The translations under genes were made by a program, and so were the position numbers. From positions 2,480,001 to 2,544,000 of the forward strand of contig NZ_CP113065.1 in NCBI RefSeq assembly GCF_026625825.1: 64,000 nt of DNA. The letters run 5' to 3'. Positions 2,552 to 8,643 of this stretch are shown piece by piece. This DNA comes from Pseudoxanthomonas sp. SL93. Lineage in GTDB: Bacteria > Pseudomonadota > Gammaproteobacteria > Xanthomonadales > Xanthomonadaceae. Every line of letters begins with the position of its first letter. Within the stretch, counting starts at the first letter, position 1. The notes beneath the pieces are model-generated. The model was not told the origin of the DNA. It did not search any database and saw only the letters and a program-made list of their open reading frames with translations.

Positions 2552-3502
2552 ATGCGCATCTTATTGCCCGAGATCGAACGAAGCGAAAGAGCCGAGCTCG
2601 CAACTCGATGCAAGAGATACTTCAGAAACCTGATTCTTAACTTCGATTGGGAAGACCGATCTCTTATAATAAAAGGACCATCTTTCAGCCACCTCGATAT
2701 TGACCACGAACTACTGGACTTCGCTGAAACATTCGGATGCGAAAGAAGCATAAGTGGCGTCTCGCAGTTCCACATGGAACTAGGTGGCTATGATCTATCC
2801 TTTGAGGACAGCTGGTCAGGCTTCTACATAGCCAAGCGCGCCCGGATCGAGAGCGGAAATCGTCTCACAATCCTGCATTTTGACGCTCACGTCGACATCA
2901 TGCCTGCCCCCCTATGGCGCGATTCAGGCAGCCTACGCAGCCTAATCGATGGACAGAGATTCTCAGTCTTACGCACCGATTGCTGGCAGCGAGCTATCGA
3001 AAACGGGACTGTAGGCATAGGCAATTTCTTCACGCCATTCTTTCATGATCTGTCCAGCTTCACAGTTATGCACGTCACCTCAGTTCCCACCGAGGGGGTA
3101 AAAACCTACCGCGCGACGCCGTCGACGTCCGAGTCAAGCGACCTCCGCGGCATCCAGCAAATAAGCGTGGAGATGCAGAAAGCCCGGAGTGGTGACGACC
3201 CCTATACATATGCCCGGTCTAATGATTTGCAGTGGCTGCTCGATGTATCCCCCTCCCAGGAACTGATAGGCCATATTGATCTTGACTACTTCGTAAATTA
3301 CTTTGATGGAAGAAGCAAAGATCAGCTTGATAAGAACTTCAGCCTAGATTCTGCCTTTCGATCAATCGACCGGATCGCAGATACACTATCAAGGTCAGGA
3401 GTTTATGTAAGCCGATGGATCCTGGCGACATCGCCGGGATTCTGCCCAGCTAGAGCGTGGAACCAACTCATCAACAGATTTGCCAGCGCCATGGAAGCTT
3501 AA
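2552..3502 (+). CDS. Arginase-fold (UPF0489-like) peptide arginase candidate
   Basis: A 316-aa ureohydrolase-fold protein. The metal-binding signatures are visible: 'HFDAHVD' (residues 109-115, the DAHxD motif) and 'HIDLDYF' (241-247, the DxD pair), plus 'GNFF' at 157-160, the arrangement I recall for UPF0489 proteins. OspR-type members of that family convert arginine in a RiPP precursor to ornithine. The nearby FxSxx precursor has Arg at positions 40, 55, 64 and 78, so it is the likely substrate. The gene starts an A+T-rich two-gene unit with the aldo/keto reductase 7 nt downstream. No clear ribosome-binding site precedes the ATG. Its role on this precursor is inferred from context. Confidence 0.75.
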   Translation: MRILLPEIERSERAELATRCKRYFRNLILNFDWEDRSLIIKGPSFSHLDIDHELLDFAETFGCERSISGVSQFHMELGGYDLSFEDSWSGFYIAKRARIESGNRLTILHFDAHVDIMPAPLWRDSGSLRSLIDGQRFSVLRTDCWQRAIENGTVGIGNFFTPFFHDLSSFTVMHVTSVPTEGVKTYRATPSTSESSDLRGIQQISVEMQKARSGDDPYTYARSNDLQWLLDVSPSQELIGHIDLDYFVNYFDGRSKDQLDKNFSLDSAFRSIDRIADTLSRSGVYVSRWILATSPGFCPARAWNQLINRFASAMEA

Positions 3503-3509
3503 GTTTGCA

Positions 3510-4301
3510 ATGATGAAGCCGCCGCTGATCATATACGGAACCGCCGGCTATGGGCCAAGGACTATGGCACTCACTAGTGCCGCACTGAACGCGGGCATTT
3601 CCGGCTTAGACACCGCAAATCAGCTTCCGTACTACGAAGAGCGAGAAGTCGGTAGGGCTCTGGCGACATATGCTGGCGCAAAGCCATACCTACAGACAAA
3701 GTTCACAACCACGAAGGGGCATCATATTCGAGTGCCATATGATCCACTCGCATCTCCTGGAGTGCAGATAGGTCAGTCAATCGGTGTATCAGTTCGCAAT
3801 CTTTTACGCCCATATATTGATGCGTACCTCCTTCACTCCATCGAAGGCGAGCGAATCGGCCGTGTCGATTCTATGCGCCTAGAGGCGATGCACACCCTAA
3901 AAGAAGTAGGCATTGTGGGCGCCGTGGGCGTGTGTAACGTCAGCGCCAAGGAGATTTCGGCCATCACCAGAACGATCGGCCGGATCTCGATTGTGCAGAA
4001 TCGTTGCGATCTAGCAAACGCTTGGGATAAGGCAGCACGCGCGCTTTGCCTCCAGGAATCCATCACATATCAGGGGTATGGACTTTTTCATCAGTGGGAG
4101 GCAGTGCAACTCTGCTCACCCATACTGAATGCTGCAGCTGACCACAGTATCAGCAGGGCCACCGCATATCTGATTATGGCCATCCAATCTGGCATAACTC
4201 CGATTGTAGGAAGCAATAGCATTTCGCACATGCAAGAATTAGCGGCCATTGGAGTGGCTATTGAGAAACTTACGCTCGATGCCCGATTGAGCGTTCGGTA
4301 G
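3510..4301 (+). CDS. Aldo/keto reductase
   Basis: A 263-aa NADPH-dependent aldo/keto reductase. Visible family elements are 'GLDTAN' with the active-site Asp (34), Tyr41/42 in 'PYYEEREVG', Lys64 in 'QTKF', 'LLHS' with the catalytic His, and a C-terminal 'GITPIVGSNS' that fits the cofactor phosphate-binding loop. The Asp-to-Tyr spacing is 2-3 residues longer than in typical members. I use the ATG at 3510, 7 nt after the arginase stop; an upstream TTG (3480) would overlap that gene. Its 3' end overlaps the converging HEXXH gene by 32 bp. It may reduce a carbonyl on the modified peptide or supply a building block; the substrate is unknown. Confidence 0.8.
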   Translation: MMKPPLIIYGTAGYGPRTMALTSAALNAGISGLDTANQLPYYEEREVGRALATYAGAKPYLQTKFTTTKGHHIRVPYDPLASPGVQIGQSIGVSVRNLLRPYIDAYLLHSIEGERIGRVDSMRLEAMHTLKEVGIVGAVGVCNVSAKEISAITRTIGRISIVQNRCDLANAWDKAARALCLQESITYQGYGLFHQWEAVQLCSPILNAAADHSISRATAYLIMAIQSGITPIVGSNSISHMQELAAIGVAIEKLTLDARLSVR

Positions 4302-5358
4302 CATCCCTGATCGCACACAGAACCTCTTGCGCTAGCTCCGTCAGCTCGATGTGACGCTTTCCTATAACAGCGATCACGTCCGCCCCGAATCCTTTAGCAC
4401 TCCGGTCGAGAAGCTCGCCTCCGCGACGACCCTCACACACCAGATGCGCGGCACCTTTAGCCAACGCATACCAGATCATCACCGCATGCACATACGTGCG
4501 AAGCGACAACATCTGACCGGTCCATGGAGATCTTATTACCCGCTCCTGTGAAGCAGAAGTGGTAAGCGGCGTCTCAAGCTCAACAATATCAAGCATAGAG
4601 TGAACTGCCTCATGAATGAGAGCATCATAGATCGCTTCTGGATACGCAGAACTTGGGTTATGTAGAACGGTCATTCCATTCGCCACCGGCGTCGAAGATG
4701 ACCTAAAAGAAGGGCTTGCGGGATCACTCCGAACGACCACGGAGCGTGTAAAGCTCCGGAAGACACTAGCATGCCCCTCAAGGCCAGACTCGACCAGCGC
4801 GGCGGCTTTCACGATGAGGCTCAGGACAACACCGAATTCTCCTGGCGACCATGCTTGATGGCCACCACGCACCTGCGATAATGGACCGGTGGCGTAAGTA
4901 CTCAGGCCGTCTACTACACAGCCGGCATTCAACCTTGGCAAAAATAACGCCTTCCCTTCCAGCAAGGCCGCGTCGCCTAGCGCGGTCCAGTTTGCTAGGG
5001 CCAGCCCACTAAAGCTCTCAGAGCCAACCACTGATTCATGCTCTGCAGGATCCTTGGACGCTAAAACTGCCTCCACGTGCAGGCAACGATCTAGCCAGCG
5101 AAGCTGCTGTGCTGGCTCCCGCAGCACGAACACTTCCCACGTCTGCGGCGCCTCAAGAACCCTAGTAACCTGAGTAGCGGGTGCGGCCAGGATGAGATCT
5201 ACAAATCCCTTTTCCAATGTCAGAAGAGCGGCCAATCGCTCGCCAATGTATCTTCGCCGACGAGATAGTAGCGTAGCGTGGAATGTATCGCTTTCGTGCC
5301 CGCTCAATACCGCTAGTATCTGCGAGGCGACCTCGCCATTGCTAGGCGCGCCTTTCAC
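4270..5358 (-). CDS. HEXXH-motif putative peptide modification protein (copy 2)
   Basis: A 362-aa protein with the metal-binding motif 'HEAVH' (about residues 249-253 from the GTG start), followed ~35-50 residues on by 'SPWTGQMLSLRTYVHA'. This pattern fits the HEXXH-motif family that accompanies FxsB/FxSxx peptide systems, mainly in actinobacteria. Related HEXXH RiPP enzymes have, as I recall, been shown to be 2-oxoglutarate-dependent oxygenases rather than peptidases. GTG 5358 is preceded by GAAGG with 5-nt spacing; TTG 5370 lacks such a site. The start lies inside the end of the paralogous gene upstream. The two copies are clearly diverged, so they may act on different residues. Confidence 0.75.
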   Translation of the reverse strand: MKGAPSNGEVASQILAVLSGHESDTFHATLLSRRRRYIGERLAALLTLEKGFVDLILAAPATQVTRVLEAPQTWEVFVLREPAQQLRWLDRCLHVEAVLASKDPAEHESVVGSESFSGLALANWTALGDAALLEGKALFLPRLNAGCVVDGLSTYATGPLSQVRGGHQAWSPGEFGVVLSLIVKAAALVESGLEGHASVFRSFTRSVVVRSDPASPSFRSSSTPVANGMTVLHNPSSAYPEAIYDALIHEAVHSMLDIVELETPLTTSASQERVIRSPWTGQMLSLRTYVHAVMIWYALAKGAAHLVCEGRRGGELLDRSAKGFGADVIAVIGKRHIELTELAQEVLCAIRDATERSIGHRA

Positions 5359-6541
5359 GGATGCCTTCAACTAGCGCGGGATAATCCGATTTCATTACCA
5401 TCTTCTGCATGGCGTATATACAATCGATAAGTATAGGGTCAGTCAAATGCCTCCACGAAGAGGTGAGCCCCACAAGATCGGAACGATAGAAACCTTTTCT
5501 TGCATCCCAGGCCATGGCAGCGGCGCGCTCATTTCCGAACTCCTTCACAGCCCCTGGCATTGTCCAGAATTTATACAAACCGAACCAAACGAAGCATGCC
5601 TGCATGAACTGCCGGGGCGTTAGCGTTCTTCCTGACCAGGGTGAGACAGCGCCATATCCGACGCCCGAGTAGACGTCTGCATCGGTGACCCAAGGAGCCA
5701 TCTTCTCCTGCATATACAGGACGGAGTGGATGCTCTCGTGAACGAGAGCATCCGCAAGCACTGCCAGGTCGACTCCTGGCGCAAGTACGTTGGTGAGACA
5801 AGTTCTTCCAACATACTGCCCTGTCGATCCAGAAGTAAATCTGGATGGCTGCCGCGGATCATTTCGCACAACGAGGGAAAGCGTGAAACTCGTGACTGTC
5901 TCACCTATATGCTTATCAACTCTGTGTATGCGCCGCAGTGCTTCCGCCAGCTTAGCAACCACCTCCGACTCCTCGGCTAGCGTGTGAAGATGGACTCGAC
6001 CCTCCAGAAAATGACGCTCCAGTTCTGAGCTTGTGAGCTGAGGGTGGTCCTCCTCAAGAAGAATCCCTGTTGCGTTTGGCGACCTAAAGTCAGCGCTCAG
6101 TCCATAGCCGATCGAAGATGCCTCAATTTGATCGCGAGCATCATCAGCCGGAAACAGCTGAGCCCGCGATTTAGCCTTTCCAAACCAGTCTCCCTGTGCC
6201 GTCCATAACTCGAGTTCGGGATCAGCACATTCAACACCATCTCTAGCGCGAAGCTCTGCGTGAACTGCACGGCGAAAGAAATCGGCTGACTCTGATGGTT
6301 GAACGTTATGCCAGGCAAAGTATGACGCCAAAGGCGAAGTTGACACTCTTTGAATAGAGTCTTCGCTTAGCCTAAGCCAAAGCCCTATTAATGAATCATC
6401 GTGCGCAGACGCATTTGCAAGCGCAATGCCAAGACCTCGCCGCGTACGAGAAAAGTAGGCGGACCTTAGCTCACCCAAAGACTGACTAAACTCTTTCTCC
6501 CATCCAAGCCAGTCTGGTGTGGCATCTATAGTTATTGTCAC
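5342..6541 (-). CDS. HEXXH-motif putative peptide modification protein (copy 1)
   Basis: A 399-aa paralogue of the next gene downstream, with 'HESIH' at residues 268-272 and a matching 'SPWSGRTLTPRQFMQA' block about 30 residues later. The N-terminal ~200 residues are helical and resemble the other copy only loosely. Translation starts at GTG with GGGGAG 6 nt upstream; GTG and the TGA of the radical SAM gene overlap as GTGA, so the genes are coupled. It probably carries a metal and modifies the FxSxx precursor, perhaps by hydroxylation. This is inferred from family and position. Confidence 0.78.
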   Translation of the reverse strand: MTITIDATPDWLGWEKEFSQSLGELRSAYFSRTRRGLGIALANASAHDDSLIGLWLRLSEDSIQRVSTSPLASYFAWHNVQPSESADFFRRAVHAELRARDGVECADPELELWTAQGDWFGKAKSRAQLFPADDARDQIEASSIGYGLSADFRSPNATGILLEEDHPQLTSSELERHFLEGRVHLHTLAEESEVVAKLAEALRRIHRVDKHIGETVTSFTLSLVVRNDPRQPSRFTSGSTGQYVGRTCLTNVLAPGVDLAVLADALVHESIHSVLYMQEKMAPWVTDADVYSGVGYGAVSPWSGRTLTPRQFMQACFVWFGLYKFWTMPGAVKEFGNERAAAMAWDARKGFYRSDLVGLTSSWRHLTDPILIDCIYAMQKMVMKSDYPALVEGIRERRA

Positions 6542-7743
6542 CCCGCTCCCCTTTGTGACCTGATGTGCTCAAGAGCTGACCTCCTACGTAAGGTTTCATT
6601 GCTATCGACTCTAAGCAGCACTCGCACTCTATGGAATATAGCTTTTATGTCCTTACACCAGATAGACGAGTGGTTGAACTTTGAAGCCCGCTCTCGCGCG
6701 TCATTCCTGTATCTATGCGGCAGGTATCCGCCCGCGCAAGTTGCACTCTCGCTGCACTCGACACAGTCGTCGGGCAAAGGCAGTTCACCTCGGGACACCA
6801 TTGCGGAGAAGGAGTCACTACGAACGTAGTCGTGAAAGCCATGGCGGGAAACATTCAGAGAAGTTGCAGTCAGCCCGCTCTCACACACCTTCAGCACATC
6901 GAGCCCCTCGATGGTTCCATCCGCTTCTACGAACACGTAAGGGAGAGATCCAGAGCCGAAGGTGTCTACTCTTGAGCGACCACCCATCACTAGTTCTGCC
7001 ACTTGCCGGAGTATTCTCACCCCTCCGCTTAGGTCTCCTCGAACTATCCATTCATCTAGCAGCGGAATGAGAAAATCTGCGACTGGGGTCTCACCGAATT
7101 CTCGCGTCGCAGCCAAGTGTTCTTCATATGACATGTCTGGGAACAAGAAATCTATTGACTCAAATCCCATACCCTTTAATGCAGTCATGACCTCATGGGG
7201 ATTCTCTCCAAGAGGAATCACGCATAGCGCACTGAAAGTGGCCGAAGCTCGCTTAAGCTCTTCGACGCCCCTAGCCACACTTGCATAGCTGCCGTTCCCT
7301 CGCTTGTCTACACGATGCAAATCGTGCGACGCCTGAGTTCCATCTACGCTGACACTTGTATGCACATTGTGGTGCGCCAGCATTGTTGCCCAGGCAGGTG
7401 TGAGCAACGTTCCGTTCGTCTGGAGCACTATGTCAACTCGTCGAGGCGCCAAAGTCGATACAGCATAGCGGCACAAATCATCAAAGCGCCGAGCTCCGAC
7501 AAGAGTAGGCTCCCCGCCATGCAGAACGATCTGCACTCTATCTAGGGACTCAATCTCTGCGTAGGAAGCTATGCGCTTTATGGCTTCATGCACAACCTCG
7601 CTTGACATTAGCTTAGGGCGGTTGCGCCAGCTAGCGTCTGCTTTGAAGTAGACGTAGCAGTAGTCGCACGCGAGATTACATCTCGACGAAATCTTAAGGA
7701 CGAAGGATCTTAGTCTTGGGGCTGCTGAGCTTGGGCTACTCAT
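6538..7743 (-). CDS. fxsB: FxsB-like radical SAM/SPASM peptide maturase
   Basis: A 401-aa radical SAM enzyme. The SAM-cluster motif is C22-x3-C26-x2-C29 ('CNLACDYC'), followed by 'LHGGEPT' and 'QTNGT'. The C-terminal SPASM/twitch region has cysteines near 287, 327, 330, 336 and 363, including 'CAGGYLPHRY'. 'KISSRCNLACDYCYVY' closely matches FxsB enzymes, which with XyeB and GrrM form three-residue cyclophane crosslinks from an aromatic side chain to the beta-carbon two residues later. It lies 16 nt after the FxSxx precursor gene, which fixes its substrate. The ATG at 7743 has only AGGGG directly against it, so translation may depend on the upstream gene. Confidence 0.88.
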   Translation of the reverse strand: MSSPSSAAPRLRSFVLKISSRCNLACDYCYVYFKADASWRNRPKLMSSEVVHEAIKRIASYAEIESLDRVQIVLHGGEPTLVGARRFDDLCRYAVSTLAPRRVDIVLQTNGTLLTPAWATMLAHHNVHTSVSVDGTQASHDLHRVDKRGNGSYASVARGVEELKRASATFSALCVIPLGENPHEVMTALKGMGFESIDFLFPDMSYEEHLAATREFGETPVADFLIPLLDEWIVRGDLSGGVRILRQVAELVMGGRSRVDTFGSGSLPYVFVEADGTIEGLDVLKVCESGLTATSLNVSRHGFHDYVRSDSFSAMVSRGELPLPDDCVECSESATCAGGYLPHRYRNDARERASKFNHSSIWCKDIKAIFHRVRVLLRVDSNETLRRRSALEHIRSQRGAG

Positions 7744-7759
7744 CCCCTAAGTGGATCTT

Positions 7760-8014
7760 CTAGTTACTGGACAAGAAGGCACGCGCGAAGGCTATGTTCG
7801 CTTCCTCGGATATTTCAGGGGAACGCGCCACCCCATCCAGTATCTGAGCCCTACTAAAATCATGCCCAGATTTACTATGTCCGGTTCCACCACTCCGCGA
7901 GAAACCCGTCTCTTGTGTAGAGCCGTTTGAGTATGCCTGGAATGCCAGGCTCCCCTCTAGGGCCTCCTTCATGGCATTCAAAATCTCATTCTTCGCCTGA
8001 CCGTCGGACGACAT
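7760..8014 (-). CDS. fxsA: FxSxx-COOH RiPP precursor peptide
   Basis: An 84-aa precursor. Its last five residues are F80-L-S-S-N84, a perfect FxSxx-COOH motif, in 'FARAFLSSN'. The N-terminal part (residues 5-30) is a helical leader; residues 30-56 are Gly/Ser-rich with 'GFSR' and 'DFSR'; residues 57-84 hold a second helix and the likely core. The ATG at 8014 is preceded by AAAGGAG (8023-8029); an in-frame TTG at 8056 would fall at the predicted promoter and is rejected. The radical SAM enzyme could crosslink F80 to S82 and perhaps F76 to R78. Arg40, 55, 64 and 78 are possible arginase targets. No exporter or protease gene is seen nearby. Confidence 0.82.
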   Translation of the reverse strand: MSSDGQAKNEILNAMKEALEGSLAFQAYSNGSTQETGFSRSGGTGHSKSGHDFSRAQILDGVARSPEISEEANIAFARAFLSSN

Positions 8015-8582: not shown

Positions 8583-8629
8583 CACTCATAATGCTGGGGT
8601 CGGTGGTTCGAGTCCACCCATAGCCACCA
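8583..8629 (+). repeat. 3' half of tRNA-Met (CAT): island attachment site
   Basis: From CACTCATAATG (anticodon loop CTCATAA) through GGTGG-TTCGAGT-CCACC (T arm) to CATAGCC-A-CCA this is the 3' half of an elongator tRNA-Met. The left side of the anticodon stem (CTTCA) cannot pair properly with TGCTG, and there is no D arm or 5' acceptor strand upstream, so the tRNA is not complete. Such a 3'-half copy is left when a tyrosine-recombinase element integrates into a tRNA gene. Because this copy reads on the plus strand, the intact tRNA should be at the left end of the element, outside the window. Confidence 0.8.
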
Positions 8630-8643
8630 CACCGCGTGACCTG

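Follow-up and report, generated by a model that had tools for sequence, protein, structure and literature searches.

The radical SAM (rSAM) enzyme YhhB forms C3(Tyr)-Cbeta(Arg) and C2(His)-Cbeta(Arg) bonds in YhhA/YhhB triceptides (PMC11002830). ChlB/ChlH is a fused rSAM enzyme and aKG-HExxH beta-hydroxylase that hydroxylates Asp and His (PMC12636437). In the biphenomycin pathway an rSAM C-C crosslink, a UPF0489 arginase (BipC/PbsE) and an aKG-HExxH hydroxylase (BipH) meet on one precursor (PMC12707348, PMC12257519). Peptide arginases act on NHLP, N11P, SCIFF and 'SCCRRSCN' precursors, with 'DD(I/V)LF' added and KgrD and PbsE mentioned; the list of substrates in the introduction of that paper holds no yhh- or FxS-type cyclophane precursor (PMC12703449). 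Here we describe a locus in a stretch of 64,000 nucleotides of Pseudoxanthomonas sp. SL93 (NZ_CP113065.1, positions 2,480,001 to 2,544,000; hereafter the window). It is probably a cluster for a ribosomally synthesized and post-translationally modified peptide (RiPP), with a cyclophane-type rSAM enzyme, HExxH hydroxylase-like proteins and an arginase-fold enzyme.

The original prediction placed a precursor, an rSAM enzyme, two HExxH proteins, an arginase-fold enzyme and an aldo/keto reductase within 5.5 kb. The list of open reading frames confirms all six where they had been placed, as compact open frames spanning 2552-8014. With the island end discussed below, the features are:

2552..3502, + strand: arginase-fold protein, peptide-arginase-like, Asp86/His241 replacing His/Asp
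3510..4301, + strand: aldo/keto reductase family protein, start codon assumed, converging on HExxH protein 2
4270..5370, - strand: aKG-HExxH-type protein 2 (HEAVH), overlapping the HExxH protein 1 gene
5342..6541, - strand: aKG-HExxH-type protein 1 (HESIH)
6538..7743, - strand: radical SAM/SPASM enzyme, cyclophane-forming type, in a clade beside FxsB and YhhB
7760..8014, - strand: precursor peptide of 84 amino acids with FSR at 38-40, FSR at 53-55, FAR at 76-78 and the C-terminus FLSSN
8583..8636, + strand: right end of the island, an exact 54-bp copy of the tRNA-Met 3' end

We propose that these genes form a triceptide-type RiPP pathway, carried by an island integrated at tRNA-Met and combining a crosslink, the conversion of Arg to ornithine and hydroxylation. 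We give this proposal about an even chance. By analogy with YhhB, the rSAM enzyme would form three-residue cyclophanes at F-x-R by linking the aromatic Phe ring to the Arg beta-carbon. The arginase-like enzyme would act next, hydrolysing the guanidine group of an Arg that is part of the ring or next to it, with ornithine and urea as products. We suggest this step because of an OspR-like fold, retained metal-binding residues and linkage to aromatic-x-Arg precursors. The peptide may also be hydroxylated by HExxH protein 1, HExxH protein 2 or both, to judge by their family. The aldo/keto reductase could be an optional tailoring enzyme or a passenger. A product with a cyclophane, ornithine and hydroxyl groups, as originally envisaged, remains the best reading; its ornithine is less certain, and the crosslink site then assumed, an FxSxx end, is unsupported.

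The structure predicted for the arginase-like protein is confident (predicted local distance difference test, pLDDT, 94.1), and its best PDB match, by a clear margin, is OspR. Hence we keep the arginase fold assigned by the original prediction, despite family scores below cut-off: 12.8 bits to PF12640 (cut-off 27) and 11.7 bits to PF00491 (cut-off 22). No family exceeds its cut-off for the arginase-like proteins of the window or of two related loci introduced below, L026 and L024. PDB searches with the relatives P0160 and P0154 return chance matches only, and a three-row alignment (A1) returns 0 matches.

The metal site is largely retained. The DxHxD and IDLDYF motifs are present as DAHVD and HIDLDYF. 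Our alignment has 45 rows: 40 from alignment A4, the proteins of L026, L027, L028 and L030, and one UPF0489 protein of genome G544. D111, H113, D115, D243 and D245 are invariant in all 45. Of the 44 rows with a letter at position 86, however, 40 have Asp and 4 have His; at position 241, 41 of the 45 rows have His and the other 4 Asp. His86 and Asp241 occur in the same four rows, P0158-P0160 and the UPF0489 protein, and the D86/H241 pair stands in 40 of the 44 rows with letters at both positions. OspR as aligned has Asp at position 241. The active-site residues of FlmR are H14, D41/H43/D45 and D166/D168 (PMC12703449), and thus position 86 stands in place of His14. This placement of D86 at the EEH histidine rests on a conserved Trp88 (44/44, including the UPF0489 protein), with Ser87 as a less likely alternative. 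The exchange of His and Asp between positions 86 and 241 suggests, from sequence, that the two are neighbours at the metal site. Compared with OspR-type peptide arginases (PF12640), the window protein therefore carries Asp where they have the EEH histidine, and His where they have the first Asp of DIDLD (PMC12703449), and its score lies under the PF12640 cut-off. BipC, unlike the window protein, is said to have EEHxE, DxHxD and DIDLD motifs (PMC12707348). The fold agrees with the predicted ornithine, whereas two active-site positions differ from characterised peptide arginases, and ornithine formation is less certain than had been assumed.

The arginase-like family is rare. It occurs in 1 of 369 genomes of the class, in 2 of 299 of the order (G000 and G045) and in 3 of 398 of the phylum, two of the last being weak fragments of 64-66 residues (G722, G580); the three draws overlap. 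PF12640 itself is matched in 1 of 200 phylum genomes. A search of 5.8 billion proteins, limited to relatives that have short exact words in common with the query, gave 3 matches for the single sequence, one of them itself, and 40 for a four-row profile. A scan of viral contigs with the arginase-like alignment gave 155 pattern-matching stretches, none of them confirmed, and P0131, a relative from Methylomarinum, had no match among phage records. Neither of two pmoA-bearing families has the gene in the genomes covered (0/2 and 0/38; pmoA in 5/185).

At the loci whose neighbourhood was read, rSAM and HExxH genes accompany the arginase-like gene; among the database relatives P0122-P0160, the surrounding DNA was covered for P0124. 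By tblastn it has a relative in 5 of 72,556 plasmid records, and all five adjoin yhhB (L026-L030). The relative in G045, locus L024, has two short similar frames ending LLYIRF, followed by genes for an HExxH protein (91.2 bits to TIGR04267), an rSAM enzyme and an arginase-like protein. With the window, the three genes lie together at seven loci in gamma- and alphaproteobacteria, and the precursors have Arg-containing motifs at 7/7 loci read. L026-L029 have GNAT and glycosyltransferase annotations downstream; L030 is without annotation and was read by translation. In Rhizobium tumorigenes (L027:6863-8335) the arginase-like domain is continuous with a GNAT domain in one 490-aa frame. In Rhizobium sp. 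L51/94 (L028:2092-6866) an IS21-type element splits the rSAM and HExxH parts of yhhB. In Rhizobium leguminosarum Vaf10 (L030:4700-7840) the rSAM, HExxH and arginase-like domains share one 1046-aa frame. Since the genes are separate in the similar L029, either a fusion or a sequencing slip could account for this.

The related loci point to an aromatic-x-Arg core rather than an FxSxx core. The window precursor has the aromatic-x-Arg motifs of YhhA/YhhB triceptides in FSR, FSR and FAR. Three or more F-x-R arise in about 0.05% of 200,000 shuffles of the precursor, and a C-terminal F-x-S-x-x in about 1% of them. In the same kind of test the aromatic-x-Arg content of YhhA proteins gives 0.004-0.009. 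The five plasmid yhhA cores read ITSYDRMHHRHNRS, and the YDR, HHR and HNR motifs of yhhA cores agree with the bonds made by YhhB. The C-terminal ISEEANIAFARAF of the window precursor aligns with ISAETLLYIRF and INKEALLYIRF of G045, at an overall identity of only 20-24% (three rows). Against NCBIfam the precursor has 0 families at E<=1, and thus does not match NF041705; as a query against plasmid records it has no match.

The rSAM enzyme is best described as FxsB-like. Its top NCBIfam model is TIGR04269 (FxsB) with 299.4 bits against a cut-off of 370, followed by NF041707 (YhhB) with 290.2 bits against a cut-off of 445. The tree has 46 rows, a midpoint root and a bootstrap that is not quite settled; it uses five of seven fetched Streptomyces FxsB proteins and 30 database relatives taken among 120 matches listed of 1507. 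The window enzyme falls in a clade of 34 rows (99/95) with that of G045, two Rhizobium plasmid proteins and the 30 database relatives. This clade excludes the five Streptomyces FxsB and four YhhB proteins. The original label 'FxsB-like' stands; FxsB proper fails on the sub-cut-off score and the separate clade. The enzyme is 30-33% identical to the plasmid YhhB proteins and strongly matches the solved ChlB/ChlH structures by sequence (PDB 9gm3, 8s5f). Among 61 relatives 18 match at E<=0.001, over most of the length only in G000 itself and G045. In the phylum draw 7/398 match at E<=1e-30, the six others with 26-31% identity. A viperin identity (PADLOC, 52.9 bits) was rejected: it reflects the shared rSAM fold, as scores of 290-299 to the FxsB and YhhB models show.

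Of the rSAM relatives whose neighbours could be read, the closest are 43% and 41% identical and lie on plasmids of R. lusitanum (L035) and R. ruizarguesonis (L036). Their precursor-like proteins (L035:6721-7863 and L036:5986-7884) are unusually long, 380 and 632 aa, with many MHDQTHSE-type repeats. After the repeat protein follow an rSAM enzyme, an HExxH protein and a protein with weak NAL1/trypsin-like matches; perhaps these loci make a multi-core RiPP with its own protease candidate. A further locus in Rhizobium etli IE4803 (L037:5844-11146) has a 77-aa peptide, a SPASM rSAM, an HExxH-like protein, JmjC_2, an unknown protein and GNAT, near TIR-like and cyclase genes.

The two HExxH proteins differ in their fit to TIGR04267 (cut-off 40): protein 1 scores 49.3 bits, above it, and protein 2 scores 38.4 bits, slightly under it. 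Both keep the HExxH motif, as do 10/10 aligned proteins. A His beyond the motif (LLHA in yhh proteins) is present in 8/10 aligned proteins, including protein 2. Protein 1 has Gln314 at this position and the L024 protein, as aligned, Asn. If this downstream His is a metal ligand, protein 1 may be altered or inactive. Protein 1 weakly matches the ChlB/ChlH structures by sequence (PDB 9gm3, 8s5f); its own model, from a two-row alignment, has a pLDDT of 39.8 and was not used.

The aldo/keto reductase clearly belongs to its family (58.9 bits to PF00248, cut-off 24) and carries what we take to be the candidate D-Y-K-H set. Its frame is open from 3480, and the gene begins 7 bases past the arginase-like gene. 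The gene ends of the rSAM enzyme and HExxH protein 1 overlap, as do those of the two HExxH proteins and the stop ends of HExxH protein 2 and the aldo/keto reductase. The precursor starts at ATG behind a good ribosome-binding site (AAAGGAG); the arginase-like gene has no evident site of this kind. Protease and exporter genes are absent from the stretch between the arginase-like and precursor genes. Hence processing would come from elsewhere in the cell, or the peptide would act inside the cell.

The comparison with described systems now becomes specific. The cluster shares a cyclophane-type SPASM rSAM enzyme, an aromatic-x-Arg precursor and an HExxH domain with YhhA/YhhB triceptides (PMC11002830), and the same arginase-like family with the five plasmid yhh loci. 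It differs by its rSAM clade, by two separate HExxH proteins, by Phe instead of Tyr/His and by an aldo/keto reductase in place of GNAT and glycosyltransferase. Compared with ChlB/ChlH, the rSAM and HExxH proteins are unfused and an arginase-like gene is added (PMC12636437). Biphenomycin, unlike this cluster, involves a B12-dependent rSAM enzyme and MNIO, and a biaryl bond between ortho-tyrosines (PMC12707348). The original prediction treated the combination of modifications as apparently undescribed. This is too broad, since the biphenomycin pathway already unites these kinds of enzymes (PMC12707348). What was not found, in literature searches that left most subscription journals outside their coverage, is the use of this combination, with this arginase branch, on aromatic-x-Arg cyclophanes.

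Several observations weigh against our proposal. The arginase-like family lacks the EEH histidine of peptide arginases, the place of EEH(N/H)EAF being aligned with Asp. The arginase-like and aldo/keto reductase genes lie on the + strand, opposite to and convergent with the rest of the cluster. The reductase was not found in L024 and is absent from the annotations of L026-L029 (L030 was not searched for it). Since the five plasmid loci have the same core sequence, the seven loci amount to about three independent lines. A Vibrio yhhA locus has aromatic-x-Arg but no arginase-like gene, and tblastn finds none at the rSAM loci of R. lusitanum and R. ruizarguesonis. In shuffles, the lone YIR motif of each G045 precursor does not reach significance (0.20, 0.12). 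The X of F-x-R in the window is Ser or Ala, not the Asp or His hydroxylated by ChlBH (PMC12636437).

Some of these points favour other explanations. The arginase-like protein could catalyse a different hydrolysis (of an amidine, amide or acyl group) or be a non-catalytic binding partner. The exchanged D86/H241 pair and the sub-cut-off family scores speak for this, and the arginase fold is common to deacetylases and other hydrolases. Yet a peptide arginase is by far the nearest fold, the remaining metal-binding residues are kept in every row, and all seven loci have Arg in their precursor motifs, so that we consider such a role somewhat unlikely. A crosslink at His motifs (HDF, HSK), with the Arg residues incidental, is suggested by GHSKSGHDFSR in the window precursor and by the two closest rSAM relatives, in Rhizobium, whose precursors consist mainly of MHDQTHSE repeats that might be crosslinked at His motifs. 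These repeats are only a putative substrate, though, and the same proteins also hold FAR (two, L035) and FGR (L036). The three F-x-R of the window exceed chance, and in G045 the precursors, which end YIRF, lack His throughout their final 35 residues. A His crosslink is thus unlikely.

The original prediction filed the locus under actinobacterial FxSxx systems, with F-L-S of FLSSN as the crosslink site. The cluster does share rSAM similarity and a C-terminal F-x-S-x-x with the FxsA/FxsB/FxSxx systems, and TIGR04269 is the best model; it differs from them in clade, sub-cut-off score, host group and gene set (PMC7159879). FLSSN is weak evidence given its frequency in shuffles, and the G045 ends are YIRF. 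We therefore consider this filing unsupported and improbable. A decaying or chance assembly of cargo genes without a single product would fit two convergent gene groups and the presence of a rare family on mobile DNA. Each of the six genes is a compact open frame, however, and the rSAM, HExxH and arginase-like genes recur together in two classes of proteobacteria, which makes an accidental assembly highly improbable.

The predicted island is supported by sequence at both ends. The tRNA-Met gene lies at genome C1:2465699-2465775, and its 3' end forms exact 54-bp repeats at C1:2465729-2465782, outside the window, and at window 8583-8636. Between them a tyrosine integrase is encoded. The repeat-bounded stretch is 22,854 bp long with a GC content of 0.567, compared to 0.679 for window 8637-64000. 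The cluster itself has 0.53, and is A+T-rich, as had been claimed, only relative to its surroundings. The RiPP genes are the last cargo of the island. A scan of ten frames shows a ScaI-type restriction enzyme, a DNA methylase, an Mrr-like nuclease and an SRAP protein as further cargo. Outside the window, the ScaI-type enzyme, methylase, Mrr-like nuclease and tyrosine integrase lie at L010:7236-12418 of this island.

The DNA adjoining the RiPP genes at the island end is presumably mobA-like, to judge by its protein sequence. In G023, of the same genus, ~1.3 kb separates the same tRNA-Met end from the mobA-like sequence; in G008, G014, G015, G017, G021 and G024 the distance, within one contig, is 28-132 kb. 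Varied inserts or a different gene order could explain this spread. The ~1.3-132 kb range among seven same-genus relatives with both on one contig possibly marks an integration hot spot. The mobile settings, together with restriction, Piwi, ThiF/JAB and Fic neighbours, hint at conflict between bacteria or with phages, which we offer as a guess at the biological role.

Beyond the single locus we propose, with somewhat less than even confidence, a distinct triceptide branch spread by mobile DNA. Here the ring Arg would be converted to ornithine by peptide arginases of a new branch, in whose metal site a His and an Asp have changed places, and the new amine would then be acylated (by GNAT, at the Rhizobium and Novosphingobium loci) or altered further. 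If this is true, a rearranged ureohydrolase site would produce ornithine within a strained C-C ring. The coupling of a guanidine-to-amine step to cyclophane formation would yield small, rigid rings whose free amine is open to derivatisation. The family would be a natural experiment in the exchange of arginase metal-site residues. It would also suggest a role for the unnamed protein of the five plasmid yhh loci, which is annotated as hypothetical, as GNAT in one, or not at all.

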